Below, one piece after another: positions 7,140 to 21,432 of a stretch of 39,738 nt of DNA (positions are counted from its first letter, which is position 1; every line of letters starts with the position of its first letter). Below the pieces are notes generated by a model. That model was not told the origin of the DNA. It made no database searches and worked only from the letters and a program-made list of their open reading frames with translations. The position numbers and the translations under genes were made by a program. The DNA lies in the NCBI GenBank assembly GCA_944324495.1, contig CALUWN010000015.1, positions 1-39,738 on the forward strand. The letters run 5' to 3'. This DNA is from an uncultured Mucispirillum sp. (GTDB taxonomy: Bacteria; Chrysiogenota; Deferribacteres; Deferribacterales; Mucispirillaceae).

Positions 7140-8039
7140 ATGCAGATAAATTATCGTAAGATAAAACTGACGTTATTTTTTGAAAAGAAGATAAAAATTA
7201 ATATCCCTTTTGTTTATGTATTTCGCTCTGTTTTAGGTAATGAACTGCATTATCTTTCCTGCGTATTAAAACAGCAGACATGTAATATATGCCCACTGCG
7301 TTTTAAATGTGCATACAGCGTTCTTTTTGAAAACCCTGTTGATAAAAATAATACTGTCATTACAGGCAGAGATAAAGCACCTTCGCCCTATATTATAAAG
7401 GCAGAATATTCTAAAAATGATGAAATAGATAAGGTTGATATAACTGCAATATTTATAGGATATGGTATAGATTATATTTCATATTTTTTACTGGCTGTAA
7501 AAAGAGCAGGTGAAAAAGGTATGTTTAAAGAAAGAATAAAATATAATATGGGCTATATTTCACACATTAATAACGAATACAGTTTAGAGTTTGATTTTAC
7601 AAGTCTGCCTGTTGAAACATACATTTTTGATGAAGGCTGCGGATTATCTCATAAAAAGCTTAATATTCAGTTAATAACCCCATTTAGATACAAAAAATCA
7701 GGCAAATATGAATCTAATATTAATATTAATGATATATTATTGGCTTCAAAACGCCGCCTTGATATGCTTTCAAACTTTTATGGGGATAAAAGTATAACTC
7801 CAAAATTGACTTTTATAGAAAACAGTAAAATAATAGAAAGCAATCTTTCTTGGCAGGACAGCTCAAGATATTCACGCAGGCAGGATACAAGTATGAAAAT
7901 AGGTGGTATTATAGGCTATATAATTGTGGAGGCTGATTTTTCACAGCAGCATTTATCACTACTTGAAGCTGCAAAATTATTTAATATAGGAAAAAATGTG
8001 TCATTTGGTTTAGGGCATATAGATTATGAGGAAATATAA
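7140..8039 (+). CDS. cas6: Cas6 pre-crRNA endoribonuclease
   Basis: Cuts the CRISPR transcript within repeats to make crRNAs for the Csm complex. The 299-aa protein is a RAMP of usual Cas6 size. It carries a cysteine cluster (C41, C48, C51, C57; CNICPLRFKC) seen in many type III-linked Cas6 proteins of the longer kind. The C-terminus has the glycine-rich loop (NIGKNVSFGLGHIDYEEI) of the Cas6_C family. It is first in the operon, after AAAAAGG (7127-7133). Its stop codon overlaps the Cas10 start by one base (TAATG at 8037-8041), implying translational coupling. The catalytic residue cannot be named with confidence, as Cas6 active sites vary. Confidence 0.85.
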   Translation: MQINYRKIKLTLFFEKKIKINIPFVYVFRSVLGNELHYLSCVLKQQTCNICPLRFKCAYSVLFENPVDKNNTVITGRDKAPSPYIIKAEYSKNDEIDKVDITAIFIGYGIDYISYFLLAVKRAGEKGMFKERIKYNMGYISHINNEYSLEFDFTSLPVETYIFDEGCGLSHKKLNIQLITPFRYKKSGKYESNININDILLASKRRLDMLSNFYGDKSITPKLTFIENSKIIESNLSWQDSSRYSRRQDTSMKIGGIIGYIIVEADFSQQHLSLLEAAKLFNIGKNVSFGLGHIDYEEI

Positions 8040-10387
8040 TGGATAATGCAGGCAATACAAAATCTAAAGCAAGTGTTTTTGCGATAGTTATAAATCTGCG
8101 TATTATAAGCAGGCTTTATGGTATAATTTTCAAAGAAAGTAATATAGAAAAAATTTATAGTTCATTTTTTGAGCAAATAAACAGTAAAACAAATTTTCTC
8201 ACTGATTTATGGCAGGAATGTGGGTTTACCTGCCCCATGAGCATTTTTGGCGATGATTTAAAAGAAATAGAAGCAAAAGCTATAAAGGCAGCAAAGGGTA
8301 TGGAAGATAAAAGTGATTATATTGCTGATTTTAATATAACAAAACAGCTTCCACACCTAATTAGCAGTGCCACACTTTTAGATAAAAAGCGTGAAAATGT
8401 TTTTTTGCCTGTTGAAAAATTTAGTAATACTGCAATTTTTCCTGTAAAAGAGAATTATAAATTAGAAGAAATAGAAGAAAAATATAAAAATATATATAAT
8501 GAACTAATTTCAGATATAGTATGTGTATTAAATAATGCGGAAAAAGATAAATCCATACTTATGACAAGTGCTGCTTTAGATTCTATATTTTTTAAATATT
8601 TATCAAATATACCAGCATTTTATACAGGTGATAATGATGATATATCACTATATGAATATGCAAAAGTAGTATCAGCCTTTTCAAGTGCAGGGTATATGCA
8701 AAAAGATGCTCTAAATGATAGCTTTGCATTAATTAGAGGTGATTTTTTCAGTATACAAAATTTTATATTTAATAAAGATGCAGCCAGCAAAAACCCTGCT
8801 AATTTATTAAGAGGCAAATCTTTTTATGTATCTTTAATGTCTGATATTGCTTCACTTAATGTACTTGAAACACTTAATCTGCCGTATTTTAATTTAATGA
8901 TGAACGCAGCAGGTCAGTTTGTAATATTAAGTGATTATAATGATGAAATAAGTCAAAAATTACTTGCATTAAAAAATGAAATGGAAACATGGCTTTACAA
9001 TAAGTACTATGCTTCAGTTTCCATGGGGCTTTCTGTGTTTGCCTGCAGTATAGATGATTTTAATTATTCAAACTTTAATCTACTTTTATTAAAACTTTTG
9101 GGAGAAAAAGAAAAATCAAAAGCAACAAGATTTAATTTAATAGAAGATAAACCATATATTTTTACAGATTATTATAAACATTTTACAGAAAACAGTAGTA
9201 AATGCGAATATTGTGGCATTATGCCAAAAAAAGATAATAAATTTTCAGCCTGCGATAACTGCCTGCTGTACTTGCAGTATGGTCAAAATTTAAGAACAAG
9301 CAAATATTTATATATAATAAAAAATGAAAATGGTGAATTCTTTAATAAATACAACATAAGTTTTGATGAAAATAAAAAGGCAGATGCTTTTATGCGAATG
9401 CATATAGATATGCAGGATAAGGCAGATAAAAGTTATAATTATCAAGATGTTATACATTATAGAAGCTATGTGGCAGTAGATAATGATGTAATACGCTCTT
9501 TTGCAGATATTGCTGCATACAGCATAGATAAAAGTGGTGCAAATATTTTGGCAGTATTAAAAGCAGATGTAGATAATCTAGGGTTAATATTTGCATGTGG
9601 GCTTTCTGAAAAAGACAGTAACGGTAAAGTAACAAGGGGCAGGCTTACTTTTTCAAGAACCAATATGCTTTCCCGTTTAATACACAACTTTTTTTCATAT
9701 CATTTATATATGATTATGCAGGAAAAAAAGTTAAATATATATACAGTTTTTGCTGGAGGGGACGATTTATTTCTTGTGGGCAGGTATGATGAAGTAATAA
9801 AGACTGCAAAAATCTTATATGATGAATTTGAAAGGTTTACAAATAAAAATAAAGAGATAACAATTTCAGCAGGCATAGGTTTTTATAATGACGGCACACC
9901 AGTATGGTTTATGGCAGAGGATGCAGAAAGCAGGCTTGAAAATGCAAAACATTTTAGAGCAAAAGGGCAGGAAAAAAGTATTATAAAAGGTAATATAAGC
10001 CTTCTTTATGGCGAATATAAATATGCAACTTTTTTAAAGGAATACGCAGTTTTTCAAGAAAAAATCAAATATTATGATAAACATATAGATGTATCACATG
10101 GGCTTTTATATAAACTTATGAACTACTGCGATATGAAAATAGAATATGAAAAAGAGCAAAAAGATAATATGGGAAATATTAATTTAAATAACTTGTTATG
10201 GCGTTCTCATTTTCATTATGTATTGGGAAAATTAAGTGTAAAAAATATTCCAAAAGGTGTAAATGCGAAAGAGTTTACAGATAGTATTAAAAATGAACTA
10301 TCAATATATTTTACTGATTTTATAGAAAATAATGCTGTATTACTTAAAACTTTCACAGCATTACAGCTATATAATACAAAAAAATAA
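8039..10387 (+). CDS. cas10: Cas10/Csm1, cyclic oligoadenylate synthase with degenerate HD domain
   Basis: Large subunit of the type III-A effector. The 782-aa protein shows a first Palm domain (LIRGDFFSIQNFIF, about 226-240), a zinc-binding pair CEYC...CDNC (C389, C392, C405, C408), and a second Palm with ADVDNLG near 510 and AGGDDLF (G573-D576), the cyclase motif. The N-terminus lacks the HD pair expected of the Cas10 nuclease. The family segment DISLYDHxK appears here as DISLYEYAK near residue 201-209, so both the Asp and the His are replaced. I infer that ssDNA cleavage is lost and cOA synthesis kept. It overlaps cas6 by one base and precedes csm2 by 15 bp. III-A rather than III-B follows from the csm2-5 neighbours. 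Confidence 0.92.
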   Translation: MDNAGNTKSKASVFAIVINLRIISRLYGIIFKESNIEKIYSSFFEQINSKTNFLTDLWQECGFTCPMSIFGDDLKEIEAKAIKAAKGMEDKSDYIADFNITKQLPHLISSATLLDKKRENVFLPVEKFSNTAIFPVKENYKLEEIEEKYKNIYNELISDIVCVLNNAEKDKSILMTSAALDSIFFKYLSNIPAFYTGDNDDISLYEYAKVVSAFSSAGYMQKDALNDSFALIRGDFFSIQNFIFNKDAASKNPANLLRGKSFYVSLMSDIASLNVLETLNLPYFNLMMNAAGQFVILSDYNDEISQKLLALKNEMETWLYNKYYASVSMGLSVFACSIDDFNYSNFNLLLLKLLGEKEKSKATRFNLIEDKPYIFTDYYKHFTENSSKCEYCGIMPKKDNKFSACDNCLLYLQYGQNLRTSKYLYIIKNENGEFFNKYNISFDENKKADAFMRMHIDMQDKADKSYNYQDVIHYRSYVAVDNDVIRSFADIAAYSIDKSGANILAVLKADVDNLGLIFACGLSEKDSNGKVTRGRLTFSRTNMLSRLIHNFFSYHLYMIMQEKKLNIYTVFAGGDDLFLVGRYDEVIKTAKILYDEFERFTNKNKEITISAGIGFYNDGTPVWFMAEDAESRLENAKHFRAKGQEKSIIKGNISLLYGEYKYATFLKEYAVFQEKIKYYDKHIDVSHGLLYKLMNYCDMKIEYEKEQKDNMGNINLNNLLWRSHFHYVLGKLSVKNIPKGVNAKEFTDSIKNELSIYFTDFIENNAVLLKTFTALQLYNTKK

Positions 10388-10402
10388 CAGGGGAGGTTAT
10401 GT

Positions 10403-10861
10403 ATGAATAATCCATATGGTAAACATGGAGGGGATATTAACCATAATAATAAAAATTCTAATAATGAAACACAGAGTATTAAACCATACTTAAAGGAACT
10501 AACAAAAGATAATTTAGCAGATATGATTAATAAAAATGCAGATGTTATTGCAAAAATAATTAAGCAGGGCTCAAATTCATATACTCAGGTAAGGAAATTT
10601 TATGATGAGCTTTTATCATTACAGAAGCAGGCTCAAGGAAATCAAAATAATGTTGATAGTGGAGAATTTGAAAAAATGCTGCCTATGATATATTTAGTAA
10701 AATCTAAAGCAGCCTATGCAAGGGGCAAGAAGAATATTAATGATAACCTGCTTTCTTTTTTAGTATTTTATATTGAAAAAATAAAAAATATAGAGCAGTT
10801 GAAATATTTTATGCTGTATTTTGAAGCTATTTTAGGCTATTTAAGGCTTCATTCAAAATAA
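10403..10861 (+). CDS. csm2: Csm2, small subunit of the type III-A complex
   Basis: Small helical protein forming the inner filament of the Csm complex. It has 152 aa: an Asn/His-rich, disordered-looking N-terminus of about 30 residues, then an all-helical body ending in YLVKSKAAYARGKK...FYIEKIKN...YFEAILGYLRLH, the usual Csm2 C-terminal pattern. A strong site GGGGAGG (10390-10396) precedes ATG 10403. Position between cas10 and csm3 is the standard order. Confidence 0.88.
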   Translation: MNNPYGKHGGDINHNNKNSNNETQSIKPYLKELTKDNLADMINKNADVIAKIIKQGSNSYTQVRKFYDELLSLQKQAQGNQNNVDSGEFEKMLPMIYLVKSKAAYARGKKNINDNLLSFLVFYIEKIKNIEQLKYFMLYFEAILGYLRLHSK

Positions 10862-10874
10862 GGGGGATAATAAA

Positions 10875-11591
10875 ATGTCATTTAAAATAATACAATATAA
10901 TATAGAAATTATAGTAAAAACAGGGCTTTTTATTGGTACAGGTAATACCAGTATGAGAATTGGTGGGGTAGATAATGAGTTTATACGAAACCCAGCAAAT
11001 AATGAGCCTTATATTCCCGGAAGTAGTTTAAAGGGGAAAATACGTAGTTTATTAGAATATGATGCAGGGCTTTTAGCTGTATCTAGAGATGGCGGTGTAT
11101 TAAATGCAAAAAAAGTGCAGTATGCAAAAAGCCAGAATATAGGCAATACTAAAAATATGGAAAATATTTTAAAACTTTTTGGCACAGCAGCAGATAATAA
11201 ATCATCAAAAGAAAATAATATTGTAGAACAAATAAATTATGGTATTACAAGGCTTTCTTTTTCTGATTTAAATCTGAAAAAAAGTAATAATGAATACACT
11301 GAAATATTTGAAGTTAAACCAGAAACAGCCATAGATAGAAGCACTGGGAAAGCTCATGATGGTGCATTAAGATTTACAGAAAGGGTTGTTGCAGGCACAA
11401 AATTTATAGGGACTATTACTTTAAAAGTGTTTGCAGAAAAACCGCATTATGATAATGAAGAAGAATTTGAAAATATGCTAAAAAGAGGGTTGCAGCTTTT
11501 AGAATTAGATGCACTAGGTGGCTCATCCAGCCGTGGTTATGGCAAAGTTTCCATTATATTTGACGGAAAAGAACTACCAGAACTCGCGTAG
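10875..11591 (+). CDS. csm3: Csm3, backbone RAMP and target-RNA nuclease of the type III-A complex
   Basis: Repeated backbone subunit (Cas7 group) that cuts target RNA at 6-nt steps. In its 238 aa, GLFIGTGNTSMRIGGVDNEF places an Asp at residue 33, the position of the known catalytic Asp of Csm3, so RNA cleavage should be intact. YIPGSSLKGKIRSLLE and ALDRSTGKAHDGALRFTE-like segments (residues about 155-172) are family hallmarks, as is the C-terminal LGGSSSRGYGKV. It starts 13 bp after csm2 with AGGGGG upstream. Confidence 0.95.
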   Translation: MSFKIIQYNIEIIVKTGLFIGTGNTSMRIGGVDNEFIRNPANNEPYIPGSSLKGKIRSLLEYDAGLLAVSRDGGVLNAKKVQYAKSQNIGNTKNMENILKLFGTAADNKSSKENNIVEQINYGITRLSFSDLNLKKSNNEYTEIFEVKPETAIDRSTGKAHDGALRFTERVVAGTKFIGTITLKVFAEKPHYDNEEEFENMLKRGLQLLELDALGGSSSRGYGKVSIIFDGKELPELA

Positions 11592-11619
11592 AAAATTATA
11601 AATCTAATAGAGAATAAAT

Positions 11620-12579
11620 ATGGAATATACATATATTAGTTTAGATATAAAGCCTGTATCATCATTTGCTAGTGAGCTTTCATCAGATACTTTTTTTGGT
11701 CAGATTTGCTATATGCTTTATATGCAGGGATACGATTTAGATGAATATTTAAAGGATTATGAAAATGACCCATTTTTTGTAATATCAGATTGTTTCCCTA
11801 TGGGTTATATTTCTATCCAGCAGATGCCTGTAAAACCAGTATCAGAAATAAATATTTATAATCTTGCTGCAAGAAAAGCATCAAAAAATAAAAATAAAAT
11901 AAAATTAGATGAGCTTATTAGTAAGGGCATATTAACTAGAGAAAAAAACGGGCTTATAAAAGAAACTGTTGATATTTCAAATATGCAGGATAGTTGGAAA
12001 AAATATAAATATGATGTGATAAAAGCTCATATCAATAGATATACAGGCACAACTTTAAATGAAGAATTTGCTCCATATTCTAATATTGAATACAGCTATA
12101 TGGCAAAAAAGGGAGAGTTTTATTTTAGGCTATATTTATATGTAAAAGAAGGTTTTGATGACAATATTATTATTTCAGCTATAGAAAATATAGGCCAAAC
12201 TGGTTATGGCAGTAAAACTTCAACTGGTAAAGGTTTTTTTAAAGTTTATAGAAATGAAAATATCAAGATAAATACAGAAAATAAAGATTCATTTATTTTA
12301 TTAAGTAATACTGTAATTTCAGGAATGGATAAATTTACTAACAAAATGTATTACACACCTGTAACCCGCTTTGGCAAACATGGGATATTAACAGAAAAAG
12401 GCACACCTTTTAAAAATCCATTTGTAATGGCAACAAGTGGAGCATTAGCATTAAATGTAAAAAATGAATGTTTTAATAAAGCCTATGTGGGTAAAGGAGT
12501 ATTTGGATTATCACATCACAAAAATGCAGTATCTCAAGGCTATGGGCTATATATTCCCTTAAAATTGGTGGAAGAATAA
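11620..12579 (+). CDS. csm4: Csm4, crRNA 5'-tag-binding RAMP
   Basis: Cas5-group subunit that holds the crRNA 5' handle and contacts Cas10. The 319-aa protein begins with TYISLDIKPVSSFASELSSDTFFGQICYML, where the S-DT-FGQ pattern is typical of Csm4. GQTGYGSKTSTGKGFFKVY near 190-210 is its glycine-rich loop, and the C-terminal GVFGLSHHKNAVSQGYGLYIPL fits the family. A 28-bp gap separates it from csm3, and csm5 starts one base after its stop. Confidence 0.9.
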   Translation: MEYTYISLDIKPVSSFASELSSDTFFGQICYMLYMQGYDLDEYLKDYENDPFFVISDCFPMGYISIQQMPVKPVSEINIYNLAARKASKNKNKIKLDELISKGILTREKNGLIKETVDISNMQDSWKKYKYDVIKAHINRYTGTTLNEEFAPYSNIEYSYMAKKGEFYFRLYLYVKEGFDDNIIISAIENIGQTGYGSKTSTGKGFFKVYRNENIKINTENKDSFILLSNTVISGMDKFTNKMYYTPVTRFGKHGILTEKGTPFKNPFVMATSGALALNVKNECFNKAYVGKGVFGLSHHKNAVSQGYGLYIPLKLVEE

Positions 12580-12580
12580 T

Positions 12581-13645
12581 ATGAATAAAATATTAAATTT
12601 TAAAATGCAGACTATATCACCTTTGCATATTTCAAGCGGGCAGGAAATTGAGCCATATTCATATATTGTAAAAGCAGAAAATAATGGAGATAAAAGGCTT
12701 TATTATATAAACCTATATGAATTTATATCATTAATTAACCAAGATGAAAGGCAAAAATTAACACAAATATTATCAGAAATAAATGCAAATAACAGCTTAA
12801 ATAACGCTGTGGAATTTGTATATAATCTTTTTAATAAAGAAAAACACAGTGAAGCTGTGCTTCTTGAATATAAGATAACAAACAAATTTTATGAAGAATA
12901 TAAAAAAAGATTAGATAATAAAAATATTGCAAACATTATGCTTTATACCTGTATAAAGGATGGTAATTATAAGCCTTATATCCCCGGTTCTTCTATTAAA
13001 GGTGCAGTAAAAAGGGCATTTGAATATAAGCATGATGCAAGTGGATACAGTAGCGAACTTTTAAAAATGAAAGTAGGTGATAGAGCTGAAAAAGACCCAT
13101 TTAAAATGTTAAAAATAGCAGATTTATATTCTGATAATCTATCAATAAATATAGGCTATGTGAGAGATTTTGCCTTAAATACATTAAATATTGCAGATAT
13201 GCGTATAAATATAATGGCAGAATTTATAAGTAATACAGTAGATTTTGACTTATGCTTAAATATAAATAATAACTATAATAAAGCAGGTATTTATAAAAGT
13301 GAATTATTTGAAAAAGATTTTGAAAGTGAAAAAAGTGTTATATTATTTTTAAATGAATATTTTAAAAGACCATTAGAGCGGGAAATAAAATATTTTTCAG
13401 ATAACGGCAAAAATAACAGCAATGAATTTATACAAAATTATAAAAGATTAAAAGATATGTATGGTGAAAATATTGCATTTATAAATATTGGAAAATTTGG
13501 TGGCAAGCTTATAAAAGTAAACAGGGAAAACGATAAAAGCATTTATGCACGAAGATATTATACAGAAATACCAGAAAAAAATATAAAAGAATATAAGCTT
13601 TCACAAGTTATGCCTATTGGCTGGGTGGCAGTATATATTCCATAA
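12581..13645 (+). CDS. csm5: Csm5, crRNA 3'-end RAMP subunit
   Basis: Caps the Csm filament and is linked to crRNA 3' maturation. The 354-aa protein opens with NFKMQTISPLHISSGQEIEP and contains YIPGSSIKGAVKRAFEY (about 132-148), both standard Csm5 motifs. It ends with LSQVMPIGWVAVYIP, the usual tail. It begins one base after csm4 and is last in the operon. No clear terminator follows; the next promoter is at 13683. Confidence 0.92.
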   Translation: MNKILNFKMQTISPLHISSGQEIEPYSYIVKAENNGDKRLYYINLYEFISLINQDERQKLTQILSEINANNSLNNAVEFVYNLFNKEKHSEAVLLEYKITNKFYEEYKKRLDNKNIANIMLYTCIKDGNYKPYIPGSSIKGAVKRAFEYKHDASGYSSELLKMKVGDRAEKDPFKMLKIADLYSDNLSINIGYVRDFALNTLNIADMRINIMAEFISNTVDFDLCLNINNNYNKAGIYKSELFEKDFESEKSVILFLNEYFKRPLEREIKYFSDNGKNNSNEFIQNYKRLKDMYGENIAFINIGKFGGKLIKVNRENDKSIYARRYYTEIPEKNIKEYKLSQVMPIGWVAVYIP

Positions 13646-13728: not shown

Positions 13729-14082
13729 ATGTTGTATAATATATATTTTTACAAAGATAAATCAGGTAAAGAACCTGTTGCAGAATATTTATCAGACTTA
13801 TCAACTAAAAATGATAAAAGTAGCAGAATAAAGCTCAATAAAATAAGGGATTATATAAAATTATTATCAACACATGGTTTATCACTGGGTGAGCCATACA
13901 TTAAACATATTGAAGGTGATTTATGGGAGCTGCGCCCTATTAGAGACCGAATATTTTTTATAACTTGGCAGAATAATTCTTTTATTTTATTGCATCATTT
14001 TTTGAAGAAATCACAAAAAACGCCAAAAAAAGAGATAGATGCAGCAAAAAGAAAAATTAATGATTTAAAATCACGGGAGTAA
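13729..14082 (+). CDS. higB: RelE/HigB-type (phage Gp49-like) toxin
   Basis: Predicted ribosome-dependent mRNA interferase. The 117-aa protein matches the Gp49/HigB pattern: YFYKDKSGKEPVAEYLSDL at the N-terminus, then GLSLGEPYIKHIEGDLWELRPIRDRIFFITW, and a C-terminal HHFLKKSQKTPKKEI-AAKRKI helix carrying the basic and His residues of the active site. The antitoxin gene starts 4 bp after its stop. The toxin-first order is typical of higBA. The pair sits between the csm operon and the CRISPR array, where it could stabilise the island; that is inference. Confidence 0.85.
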   Translation: MLYNIYFYKDKSGKEPVAEYLSDLSTKNDKSSRIKLNKIRDYIKLLSTHGLSLGEPYIKHIEGDLWELRPIRDRIFFITWQNNSFILLHHFLKKSQKTPKKEIDAAKRKINDLKSRE

Positions 14083-14086
14083 AAAG

Positions 14087-14389
14087 ATGAGTAATGAAAA
14101 CAATGTAAAGCAAAAATCTGCTATAGGTAGAAGCTGGGAAGAATTTGAAAAAGATATTTATACTGCAGAAGAAATAAGGGAAAGTGATTTAAGGGTATCA
14201 TTAATAAGTGAGTTTATCCGAGCAAGAGATGAATTAGGAATAAGTCAAAAAAAATTAGAAGAATTAACTGGTGTTAAACAGCCAATTATAGCTAGAATGG
14301 AAAAAGGCTATTCAAACCCACAAATAGAAACAGTTTTAAAATTATTAGCCCCAATGGGTAAAACACTAGCTATTGTTCCAATTAAATAA
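14087..14389 (+). CDS. higA: HigA-type XRE-family antitoxin
   Basis: DNA-binding antitoxin, 100 aa, with a C-terminal Cro/C1 helix-turn-helix (RARDELGISQKKLEELTGVKQPIIARMEKG region, about 46-77). It should neutralise the upstream toxin and repress the shared promoter. GGGAG at 14075-14079 precedes ATG 14087. It ends about 20 bp before the first CRISPR-repeat fragment. Confidence 0.85.
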   Translation: MSNENNVKQKSAIGRSWEEFEKDIYTAEEIRESDLRVSLISEFIRARDELGISQKKLEELTGVKQPIIARMEKGYSNPQIETVLKLLAPMGKTLAIVPIK

Positions 14390-14426
14390 ATATGATATAA
14401 AAAAAGATAAGACCTGATTATAAGGG

Positions 14427-14499
14427 CGAGCGTTGTATGCGAGGTGAGATTTTCCCAAGTGAGTAGCGAGGAAATAGAAAATCTCGCTGGGAAGGGTTA
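14427..14499 (+). repeat. stem-loop element module A inside the first CRISPR repeat
   Basis: A single A module directly after TATAAGGG of a truncated repeat. It begins CGAGCG, has a perfect 9-bp stem (14446-14454 with 14477-14485) and ends near GCTGGG at 14491. The next CRISPR-repeat sequence resumes near 14510. The right boundary is uncertain. Confidence 0.6.
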
Positions 14500-14673
14500 T
14501 AGACAACTAGAGACCTGATTATAAGGGATTGAAACCTTAAAGAGTTCAAATCAGAGTTATCTTCTTTTTTTGAGTTGCATTGATAGACCTGACTATAAGG
14601 GATTGAAACTCAACTATTACTGATAAGTTAGCAAATATTTTATAAGTTGCATTGATAGACCTGACTATAAGGG

Positions 14674-14961
14674 CGAGCGACTTTTGCGAGGACACTTTTT
14701 CCCGACTGAATAAGGAGGAAACAGAAAAAGTGGCTGGGGAGCGTTGTATGCGAGGTGAGATTTTCCCGAGTGAGTAGCGAGGAAATAGAAAATCTCGCTG
14801 GCGAGCGACTTTTGCTCCGCTTCGCTCCGAGTACAGAAAACGGCTTGCCATTAATATGGGCAAGACCCCGTTTTTGCGAGGACACTTTTTTCCGACTGAA
14901 TAAGGAGGAAACAAAAAAAGTGGCTGGAGAGCATACAGATAATGCTAAGCTTTATGAATTT
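14674..14961 (+). repeat. 288-bp composite stem-loop element (C-A-B-C-tail) inserted in a CRISPR repeat
   Basis: Flanked by an 8-bp direct repeat TATAAGGG (14666-14673 and 14962-14969). Modules in order: C (stem 14693-14701/14724-14732), A (14757-14765/14788-14796), B (hairpin about 14837-14874 around CTTGCC/GGGCAAG), C (14883-14891/14914-14922), and a tail ending TATGAATTT. Modules A and C are homologous but with different, perfectly paired stems. The whole is richer in G+C than its surroundings. It carries no transposase and resembles a palindromic MITE or REP-type element. The same A-B-C-tail order recurs at 21155-21380. Confidence 0.75.
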
Positions 14962-15123
14962 TATAAGGGATTGAAACATTTCTCCAGAACCTCTTTTTTA
15001 TTCAGGAAATTGGTTGCATTACTAGAGACCTGACTATAAGGGATTATTTAAAAATTGCAAAAATATAAAATATATGTTACAAGATAACTGTTTAGTTTTT
15101 TTCTAATTAACAGGGGTTTTATT

Positions 15124-15654
15124 ATGGAACATGTATTTGGCAAGTTTAATTATTATGATTTATTTGGTCATTTACTGCCAGGGGTTATTATTGGGCTTTT
15201 ACTAAATTATATAATTACTTCCACTACCCTTGAGATAAATATTAAATTTATTACAGATTCAGTTGTTATTAATTTATTTATATTTTATTTTATAGGGCTT
15301 GTATTAAACCGAGTTAGTGCTGTATTAATTGAGCCGCCGCTTATAAAATTAAATGTTCTCCATAAATGCCCTTATCATCAGATTATAAAAGCAGAAAAAG
15401 AAGACCATAAACTTGTGCAGCTACAGGCTGTTATTATTTCATACAGAACTTTTATTGCTGGTTTTTCACTTGTTATATTACTGCTGATTATATTATTTAT
15501 TTTTGGTATTTTAAATATAAATATTACAGAATTTTTTATTTTACTTATTTCATTATTACTTTTAAATACAGTATTTTTTATATCATATAAAAAGCAGTTT
15601 AATGGATATACTGCCCGCGTTATGTATTATGCTGAAAACAGCCAAAACCAGTAA
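15124..15654 (+). CDS. four-helix membrane protein, putative CRISPR type III accessory
   Basis: A 176-aa protein of unrecognised family. After a short N-terminus (FGKFNYYDLFGHLLPG) it has four hydrophobic segments at about 14-34, 57-79, 112-134 and 138-158, with a basic cytoplasmic-looking stretch between helices 2 and 3 (HKCPYHQIIKAEKEDHK) and a short polar tail. Start ATG 15124 is preceded by AACAGGGG. The Card1/Can2 gene begins 15 bp after its stop, so the two are almost surely one operon. Membrane proteins are often linked to type III loci as outputs or anchors; whether this one is gated, recruits the nuclease or forms a pore is unknown. No CARF domain is visible in it. Confidence 0.75.
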   Translation: MEHVFGKFNYYDLFGHLLPGVIIGLLLNYIITSTTLEINIKFITDSVVINLFIFYFIGLVLNRVSAVLIEPPLIKLNVLHKCPYHQIIKAEKEDHKLVQLQAVIISYRTFIAGFSLVILLLIILFIFGILNINITEFFILLISLLLLNTVFFISYKKQFNGYTARVMYYAENSQNQ

Positions 15655-15669
15655 ATAAGGGTATATTAT

Positions 15670-16740
15670 ATGGAAAATAAAATTTATGATGTTGTATTTC
15701 ATTTAGTTGGTGAAGAAAAAGTGCCTAATTTATTAGGTGTGCTACAGTTATCTTCCAAAAAACATGTGTTTATTAAATCAAAGGATTTTGCTTCTACCTA
15801 TATAAAAAATTTGCTTAATGGTGCTTTATATGATGAAATACTTGTGAACCCTTTTGATATTGATAATGTAATAGCAAAACTGCAAAAATATATTGAAGAT
15901 AATTCCATTAATAGTAAAAATACTGCATTTAATTTAACAGGCGGCACAAAAATGATGTTTACAGGAGCTTATTTAGTTTCAAATGAAATAGGTGCTGATG
16001 CTTTTTATTTTGATACTGCCAATAAAAATATAATTTTTTTAAATGATAACATAACATACCCTATAAAGCAGATTAAAAGTGTAAAAACATTTTTAGATTT
16101 AGGCAGTGAAATATATTATATACAAAATAATGGTAATTCTTCTTTAAGTGCAGAAAGAGCTGCTATGGCAAAAAAATTGTATAAATATTATCAGCAGGCA
16201 AAAAAAATACATACTCTTTATTCTGAAAATAAGGAAAACTTTGAAAGCAAATATTACGGTAAAATATATGTGGAATATTACAGCACTACCAGTTTTAAAT
16301 TGAAAATAGAAGATATAGAATGTATATATAATGATGTTAATTTTTCTGCTTATGTTGATGGTGGCTGGTTTGAAGATTATGTGCTTACTATTTTAAAAGA
16401 TTATGAAAAGCAGGGCAGAATATATGATTTACATTCTGGTATGATTATGGCAGATGTTAAAACACATAGAAAAATGCAAGAATTTGATGCAATATTTACT
16501 GACGGATTAAATCTTTTTATAATAGAACTAAAATCTGGCAATAAAATTGATGTTAAAGATATTAACAAAATAAAGGTTATTACAAATAACTTTGGCGGCA
16601 GATTTGCTCGGCCCGTATTTATATCTATACTTGATAAACAGGGTATTAAAAATAGAGCCATTTTAGATAAAGTGCCATATTTTTATGGTAAAGATTTTGA
16701 AAAACAGTTAATAGAATATCTTGATAAAATACTTATATAA
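15670..16740 (+). CDS. Card1/Can2-type CARF nuclease (DUF1887), cOA-activated effector
   Basis: Predicted nuclease switched on by cyclic tetra-adenylate from Cas10. The 356-aa protein, about the usual Card1/Can2 length, has an N-terminal CARF domain with the ligand-loop motif FNLTGGTKMM (87-96). Its C-terminal PD-(D/E)xK domain shows GGWFEDYVL (E235), QEFDAIF (D273) and IIELKSG (E286, K288), so both sensor and active site look intact. Card1 and Can2 cut ssDNA/ssRNA or nick DNA once active. It forms an operon with the membrane protein upstream and is convergent with the WYL genes, 6 bp apart. The cA4 preference is from family knowledge. Confidence 0.88.
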   Translation: MENKIYDVVFHLVGEEKVPNLLGVLQLSSKKHVFIKSKDFASTYIKNLLNGALYDEILVNPFDIDNVIAKLQKYIEDNSINSKNTAFNLTGGTKMMFTGAYLVSNEIGADAFYFDTANKNIIFLNDNITYPIKQIKSVKTFLDLGSEIYYIQNNGNSSLSAERAAMAKKLYKYYQQAKKIHTLYSENKENFESKYYGKIYVEYYSTTSFKLKIEDIECIYNDVNFSAYVDGGWFEDYVLTILKDYEKQGRIYDLHSGMIMADVKTHRKMQEFDAIFTDGLNLFIIELKSGNKIDVKDINKIKVITNNFGGRFARPVFISILDKQGIKNRAILDKVPYFYGKDFEKQLIEYLDKILI

Positions 16741-20976: not shown

Positions 20977-21154
20977 ATTTTATTTTGACAATATAACTTA
21001 TAAATAATAAAATATAAAAAATGAAATGTTTGAAAGCAAAATATTAAGAGATATGATAAAAAACATAATTTTTTTTATGCTTTTTTGTTTTATTTACATT
21101 ATATATCAATAGGTTATGAATTACCTGTTGTATATTGACCTGAATTTTATAAGG

Positions 21155-21380
21155 CGAGCGTTTTTTGCGAGGTGAGATTTTCCCGAGTGAGTAGCGAGGA
21201 AATAGAAAATCTCGCTGGAGAGCGAATTTTGCTCCGCTTTGCTCCGAGTACAGAAAACGGCTTGCCATTAATATGGGCAAGACCCCGTTTTTGCGAGGAC
21301 ACTTTTTTCCGACTGAATAGGGAGGAATCAAAAAAAGTGGCTGGCGAGCATATAAATAATGCCAAGCTTTATGAATTTAC
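21155..21380 (+). repeat. composite stem-loop element (A-B-C-tail), second copy
   Basis: Same module order and near-identical sequence to 14735-14961: A stem 21174-21182/21205-21213, central hairpin around CTTGCC/GGGCAAG near 21260-21275, C stem 21300-21308/21331-21339, and the tail ending TATGAATTT. The left end CGAGCG again follows ATAAGG of a CRISPR-like repeat, and the right end is followed by CTAAGGGATTGAAC. The flanking direct repeat is imperfect here. Confidence 0.7.
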
Positions 21381-21390
21381 TAAGGGATTG

Positions 21391-21432
21391 AACTTTCCCT
21401 GTTATTGCGATAACTTTCCCTGTTATTGCGAT
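21391..21432 (+). repeat. perfect 21-bp tandem duplication
   Basis: Two identical 21-bp units (21391-21411 and 21412-21432) beginning AACTTTCCCTG lie between CRISPR-like fragments. They look like a local duplication in the decaying array. Confidence 0.75.

Follow-up and report, generated by a model that had tools for sequence, protein, structure and literature searches.

The CRISPR-Cas locus and its split repeats

The window (the whole 39,738-nucleotide stretch analyzed here, from an uncultured Mucispirillum sp., genome G000) encodes a type III-A CRISPR-Cas locus whose cas genes, repeats and inserted elements lie on the forward strand. An intact cas6 gene for a Cas6 endoribonuclease of 299 aa (positions 7140 to 8039; Pfam PF10040, E = 3.5e-11) and a csm operon (8039 to 13645) with intact ORFs for Cas10/Csm1, Csm2 and RAMP proteins (Pfam Cas10-Cmr2_palm2, Csm1_B, Csm2_III-A and RAMPs) are found upstream of a CRISPR array, with one operon ORF (11620 to 12579) lacking a Pfam match. 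The closest named relative of the Csm3-like protein is 78% identical and lies on a contig of an uncultured Mucispirillum sp. A Gp49-like toxin and HTH antitoxin pair (13729 to 14389), also present in the sister genome G006, separates the csm operon from the array, while a gene for a Card1-like CARF-endonuclease (15670 to 16740) adjoins the array on the other side, with a small unannotated ORF (15124 to 15654) in between.

The array shows regular 36-nt repeats with a ATTGAAAC tag next to cas6 and the csm operon, as is characteristic of type III-A. Its main repeat form, R_a, reads GTTGCATTGATAGACCTGACTATAAGGG-ATTGAAAC, and the 5' half-repeat motif AGACCTGACTATAAGGG (at most 3 mismatches) occurs six times in the window compared with 0.05 expected. 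Following type I and III systems, we take ATTGAAAC to be the 8-nt crRNA tag, with Cas6 cutting just before it. The first repeat is 5'-truncated (AGACCTGATTATAAGGG, 14410 to 14426) and is split by a 64-bp two-hairpin element, copy B (14427 to 14490; nhmmer, 8e-19; covariance model, 1.8e-18), after which come a GAAGGG linker and a variant repeat (14491 to 14535, repeat proper 14500 to 14535). An intact R_a repeat (14574 to 14609) precedes a second R_a repeat of which the 5' 28 nt, ending TATAAGGG, stand at 14646 to 14673, and beyond the insert that splits it lie a single spacer (14978 to 15014) and a degenerate terminal R_a repeat (15015 to 15050). Since Cas6 is predicted to cut just before ATTGAAAC, this insert sits at the predicted Cas6 cut. 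At this point the element also breaks two more repeats, namely the first repeat (14410 to 14426, before 14427) and a repeat of a second type, R_b, whose 5' half (GTTGTATATTGACCTGAATTTTATAAGG) lies at 21127 to 21154, before 21155, so that three repeats of the window are interrupted at one position. Three spacers are intact, two upstream of the insert and one downstream, and exact 23- to 25-mers from them have no match in IMG/VR. An Rfam search over the array region gave only subthreshold matches (CRISPR repeat families and chance hits), none of them convincing for the element.

The insert is a composite of repeated units

The geometry reported in the initial annotation can be read directly from the sequence: 14646 to 14673 is the first 28 nt of the 36-nt repeat (GTTGCATTGATAGACCTGACTATAAGGG), the last 8 nt (ATTGAAAC) reappear at 14970 to 14977, and TATAAGGG stands on both sides of a 288-bp insert (14674 to 14961), its second copy being at 14962 to 14969. 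Deleting 14674 to 14969 restores a 36-mer identical to that at 14574 to 14609. This geometry exactly fits the reading then proposed, a single 288-bp non-autonomous transposon in the repeat at 14646 with TATAAGGG as its 8-bp target-site duplication. What holds of that proposal is that a short, repeated, noncoding stem-loop element lies in a CRISPR repeat and belongs to a family dispersed in the genome and the genus; it is not a single element. The insert consists of three copies of the 64-bp two-hairpin repeat and a 28-nt tail: copy A (14674 to 14737; covariance model, 2.1e-20), copy B (14738 to 14801; covariance model; two differences from the copy at 14427), copy C (14802 to 14927), which carries an extra hairpin (GAAAACGGCTTGCC...GGGCAAGACCCCGTTTT) in its first loop (model match at 14863 to 14927, 1.6e-14; fold z of -3.2), and the tail (14928 to 14955), found by pattern search. 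The right half-repeat that follows (GAATTTTATAAGGGATTGAAAC, 14956 to 14977) is R_b-like in its 5' part and R_a-like in its 3' part, and holds both the second TATAAGGG and the tag. A second composite (21155 to 21393) splits the R_b repeat and contains B (21155 to 21218), C (21219 to 21344), tail (21345 to 21372) and right half-repeat (21373 to 21393), being 95% identical to 14736 to 14961. A further hairpin (GCTCCGCTTCGCTCCGAG...GGCTTGCCATTAATATGGGCAAGACCCCG; window 14814 to 14870, and L121 to L123) recurs in the first loop of the 64-bp element, and its core is also matched in G011, which belongs to another genus of the family.

The tail pattern matches two places in G000 and two in G006, all inside arrays, and the sequence after the tail, GAATTT..TAAGGGATTGAA(A)C, is likewise seen in arrays only. 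We rejected the tail as a dispersed element in its own right, the sole extra match (in G002, outside any array) having 3 mismatches. One may ask whether B-C-tail, or B-tail, moves as one unit in the manner of IS200/IS605, with a target and a right end of its own that both read TAAGG, in which case the direct repeat would arise without any target-site duplication. All four tail copies do end in GAATTTNNTAAGG, insertion in CRISPR repeats is always after AAGG, and the confinement of the tail to arrays leaves room for a right end of its own that resembles TAAGG. Against this, the tail was not found outside arrays, and other copies of the element stop at GCTGG, tailless; we consider such a composite mover unlikely.

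A family of two-hairpin repeats restricted to Mucispirillum

Copies of the 64-bp family were collected with their flanks by blastn and nhmmer. A covariance model gave 219 matches in 10 Mucispirillum genomes, with 2 to 39 copies per genome, and no match in 10 outgroup genomes from elsewhere in the family and order; the family is restricted to the genus. Copies inside CRISPR repeats or arrays make up 6 of 21 in the window's genome and 5 of 21 in G006. A structure alignment built from 23 distinct copies speaks for a small first hairpin and a long second one, with 99.5% of cells paired, two-sided changes in 10 of 16 pairs, and a covariation score of 0.50 compared with 0.18 in shuffles, while slid pairings used as a control were only 35 to 56% paired. 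In both hairpins GA lies opposite GA beside the inner stem, where sheared pairs may form. The unit begins with CGAGYG and ends with GCTGG, at which the copies other than the tailed ones stop. This well-supported family of small structured repeats is apparently new to description.

Insertion after GG without a longer duplication

With respect to insertion sites, 38 of the 62 distinct 5' flanks end in GG, and AAGG is the commonest four-letter ending. One host hairpin is available both empty, AGCCTAACAAAATGCGG joined directly to AGAGCATTATTAGG (L050/L149), and filled, AGCCTAATAAAATGCGG and AGAGCATTATTAGGCT with the element between them (L033, L028, L106). Seen at the junction, AAAATGCGG runs straight into AGAGCATTATTAGG in the empty site, and in the filled site the two are separated by CGAGTG...GCTGG. 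A query of the joined flanks has full-length or nearly full-length matches at more than 12 further places in the genus, and filled copies split it into matches at 1 to 35 and 30 to 88, whose overlap is GG plus a chance match of CGAG to AGAG. The overlap being limited to GG and chance letters, insertion duplicates nothing beyond GG, and the 8-bp repeat around the insert is therefore not a target duplication of the 64-bp family. Genomic copies without target duplication, which the initial annotation had named beforehand as speaking against transposition with duplication, are thus present.

The multicopy host hairpin (AGCCTAATAAAATGC...GCATTATTAGGCT, then a second hairpin, GGCGAAAAAATGTATTTTTTCG) is itself dispersed in Mucispirillum (L050/L149, L144 to L163), and its loop holds the 64-bp element in some copies and lacks it in others. 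Some copies of the element also sit in loops of other hairpins, terminator-like ones included, and a flanking stem of at least 9 bp was found at 7 of 46 sites (15%, compared with 0.9% in mismatched flank pairs). With only 7 of 46 sites showing such a stem, insertion into hairpin loops is ruled out as a rule, and these loops are one kind of target.

No transposase could be linked to the family in the Mucispirillum genomes examined. The window's genome has two near-identical copies of an IS200-like protein of 152 aa that matches PF01797. A Y1 transposase was rejected as the mobilizer, as these IS200-like copies have unrelated ends and several carriers have no such gene: a PF01797 match is absent in G003, G005, G006 and G007, which hold 39, 2, 21 and 31 copies of the element (G005 being only 57% complete).

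A homologous insertion in a sister genome lies between two repeat types

A homologous region is carried by contig C30 of G006, in which four CRISPR repeats have homologous insertions. Its two arrays have leaders that are 97% alike, and each has B in its first repeat (12691 in one, 17928 in the other), joined as GCTGG-GAAGGGTTGTAGAC. The second array starts with R_a repeats and spacers of about 36 nt, then shows an R_a 5' half, B-C-tail and GAATTTGTTAAGGGATTGAAC, and continues with R_b repeats (GTTGTATATTGACCTGAATTTGTTAAGGGATTGAAC) and 30-nt spacers, one of these repeats being split by B-tail. Lying between R_a to the left and R_b to the right, this B-C-tail composite marks the junction of two array types. 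An 8-bp duplication is accordingly not seen at the homologous insertion, since the flanks share only TAAGGG and come from two different repeat types. The letters shared across the split are TAAGGG in the G006 composite and TATAAGGG in the window, and the R_b cases share 12 of 14; there is hence no fixed duplication length, and a genuine duplication would not show such variation. The units also occur apart from one another: each of A, B and C is found on its own elsewhere, and in G006 B-C lacks A and some B copies lack C. Taken with the empty sites, which contradict an 8-bp duplication, these observations make a single transposon very improbable despite the exact fit in the window.

The loop of B reads TTGTAT in R_a repeats and TTTTTT in R_b repeats. 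The window's B at 14738 has the R_a-type loop and is nevertheless followed by C-tail, as is the R_b-type B at 21155, which is the product expected if recombination took place within B. The window's right half-repeat ends in TATAAGGGATTGAAAC, the R_a form, and the other three tail copies end in TAAGGGATTGAAC after GT or AC; a second exchange would explain the TATAAGGGATTGAAAC ending and would extend the letters in common from TAAGGG to TATAAGGG. Although these are draft genomes, finding one and the same arrangement in two of them speaks against an assembly error.

An array type in decay

Beyond short, chance-like matches, nothing in G000 corresponds to the G006 leader. G000 also lacks the Cas1 that is linked to the G006 array, and what Cas1 it has is of a different lineage, common across the genus; the leader and linked Cas1 that go with spacer acquisition are thus absent from the window's genome. 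What is left in G005 and in G003 is a leader with one repeat (L166, G005:C112; L165, G003:C16), and in G006 the place that the array takes in the window, behind the toxin-antitoxin genes, holds one degenerate repeat (L048:9672-9687). The missing leader and Cas1, together with the single leftover repeats in relatives, indicate that this array type is collapsing in the genus and probably tolerates insertions. The leftover repeat of G005 adjoins a csm5-like end and a homologue of the window ORF at 15124 to 15654.

The hairpins might instead be a maintained part of the array, for example a structured leader-proximal unit that aids processing, and not insertions at all. B does lie in the first repeat of three arrays in two species (14427 in the window and the two G006 copies) with the same GAAGGG 3' junction. 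The right half-repeat retains the tag preceded by 14 nt of repeat sequence. In the window this half and the tail fold into a hairpin just before the tag (-3.8 kcal/mol, a value equalled or bettered by 5 of 200 shuffles). For the remaining three copies this folding is weak, and a general restoration of the Cas6 hairpin by the tail was rejected because it is clear in the window copy only. As the same element is dispersed genome-wide, and G005 and G003 keep leader and repeat without it, we regard a maintained unit as highly improbable. If the insert does disrupt Cas6 processing, at most the one downstream spacer would be affected.

Comparison with known mobile repeats

REP sequences are short (21- to 65-nt class), high-copy, intergenic, imperfect hairpins with conserved mismatches and no long target duplication (PMC8266576, PMC6006769). 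The 64-bp family resembles them in being short, high-copy and intergenic, with imperfect, covarying hairpins that have conserved mismatches, and no long target duplication. Unlike REPs, which have a GTAG/GTGG foot and are mobilized by TnpAREP/RAYT, it starts with CGAGYG and has two hairpins; GTAG or GTGG was not found 0 to 2 nt 5' of the hairpin, the 5' flanks being mostly GG, and no TnpAREP gene was found in several carrier genomes. In having subterminal hairpins and inserting on the 3' side of a short fixed sequence with no target duplication, the family recalls non-autonomous derivatives of IS200/IS605; it differs from them in that the IS200-like copies of G000 have other ends and several carriers lack a Y1 transposase match. 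Like the MITEs and insertion sequences reported in CRISPR-cas loci (PMC10359306), in a screen that covered cas genes and not repeats, it is mobile DNA that breaks a CRISPR-Cas locus. MITEs have terminal inverted repeats and target-site duplications, whereas the 64-bp family shows neither at the tested sites: its ends CGAGYG and GCTGG are not inverted repeats, and comparison of filled with empty host hairpins reveals no more than GG in place of a fixed-length duplication. The element is a REP-like family for which the REP foot, a TnpAREP gene in several carriers and the tested hallmarks of MITEs were not found. Prophages that integrate into CRISPR direct repeats, cited in PMC10359306, likewise use the direct repeat as an integration site; the unit here is a 64-bp hairpin repeat without phage genes or integrase. 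In the literature searched we found no report of REP or MITE insertion in CRISPR repeats, and the repeated presence of the element at their Cas6 cut is unusual.

Origin of the insert and implications

The insert is, in our assessment, likely the outcome of nested insertions and of recombination between two arrays, with the second TATAAGGG being CRISPR-repeat sequence and not a target-site duplication. The setting would be an eroding type III-A array whose repeat hairpins end in AAGG(G) just before the tag, in which a genus-specific, non-autonomous, REP-like element that inserts after GG, often AAGG, would have landed several times, presumably mobilized by an enzyme acting on single-stranded hairpins. 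B and C may have built up in tandem, with A inserted later in front of B, and homologous recombination through element copies and repeats would then have brought together a left side of R_a type and a right side of R_b type, so that the second TATAAGGG would be inherited repeat sequence. Against this explanation, no split repeat has the plain product, in which the element is directly followed by GATTGAAAC, and a later deletion or exchange is therefore needed at each of them. The number of separate insertions at CRISPR repeats is uncertain because recombination would have copied some of them, with at least A, B in R_a, and B or C in R_b as candidates.

A more speculative suggestion, which we hold to be possible but doubtful, is that CRISPR repeats of this type are a true hot spot, the enzyme of the REP-like element recognizing AAGG at the foot of the Cas6 hairpin. 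Insertions would then fall exactly at the point of crRNA cleavage and would supply portable homology for array recombination. The locus also cautions against taking every neat, short direct repeat on either side of a CRISPR-array insert for a target-site duplication, since arrays bring repeats of their own. It further provides a case, in a common gut bacterium, of small structured repeats that accumulate in CRISPR repeats where Cas6 is predicted to cut and that apparently drive arrays to recombine with one another.
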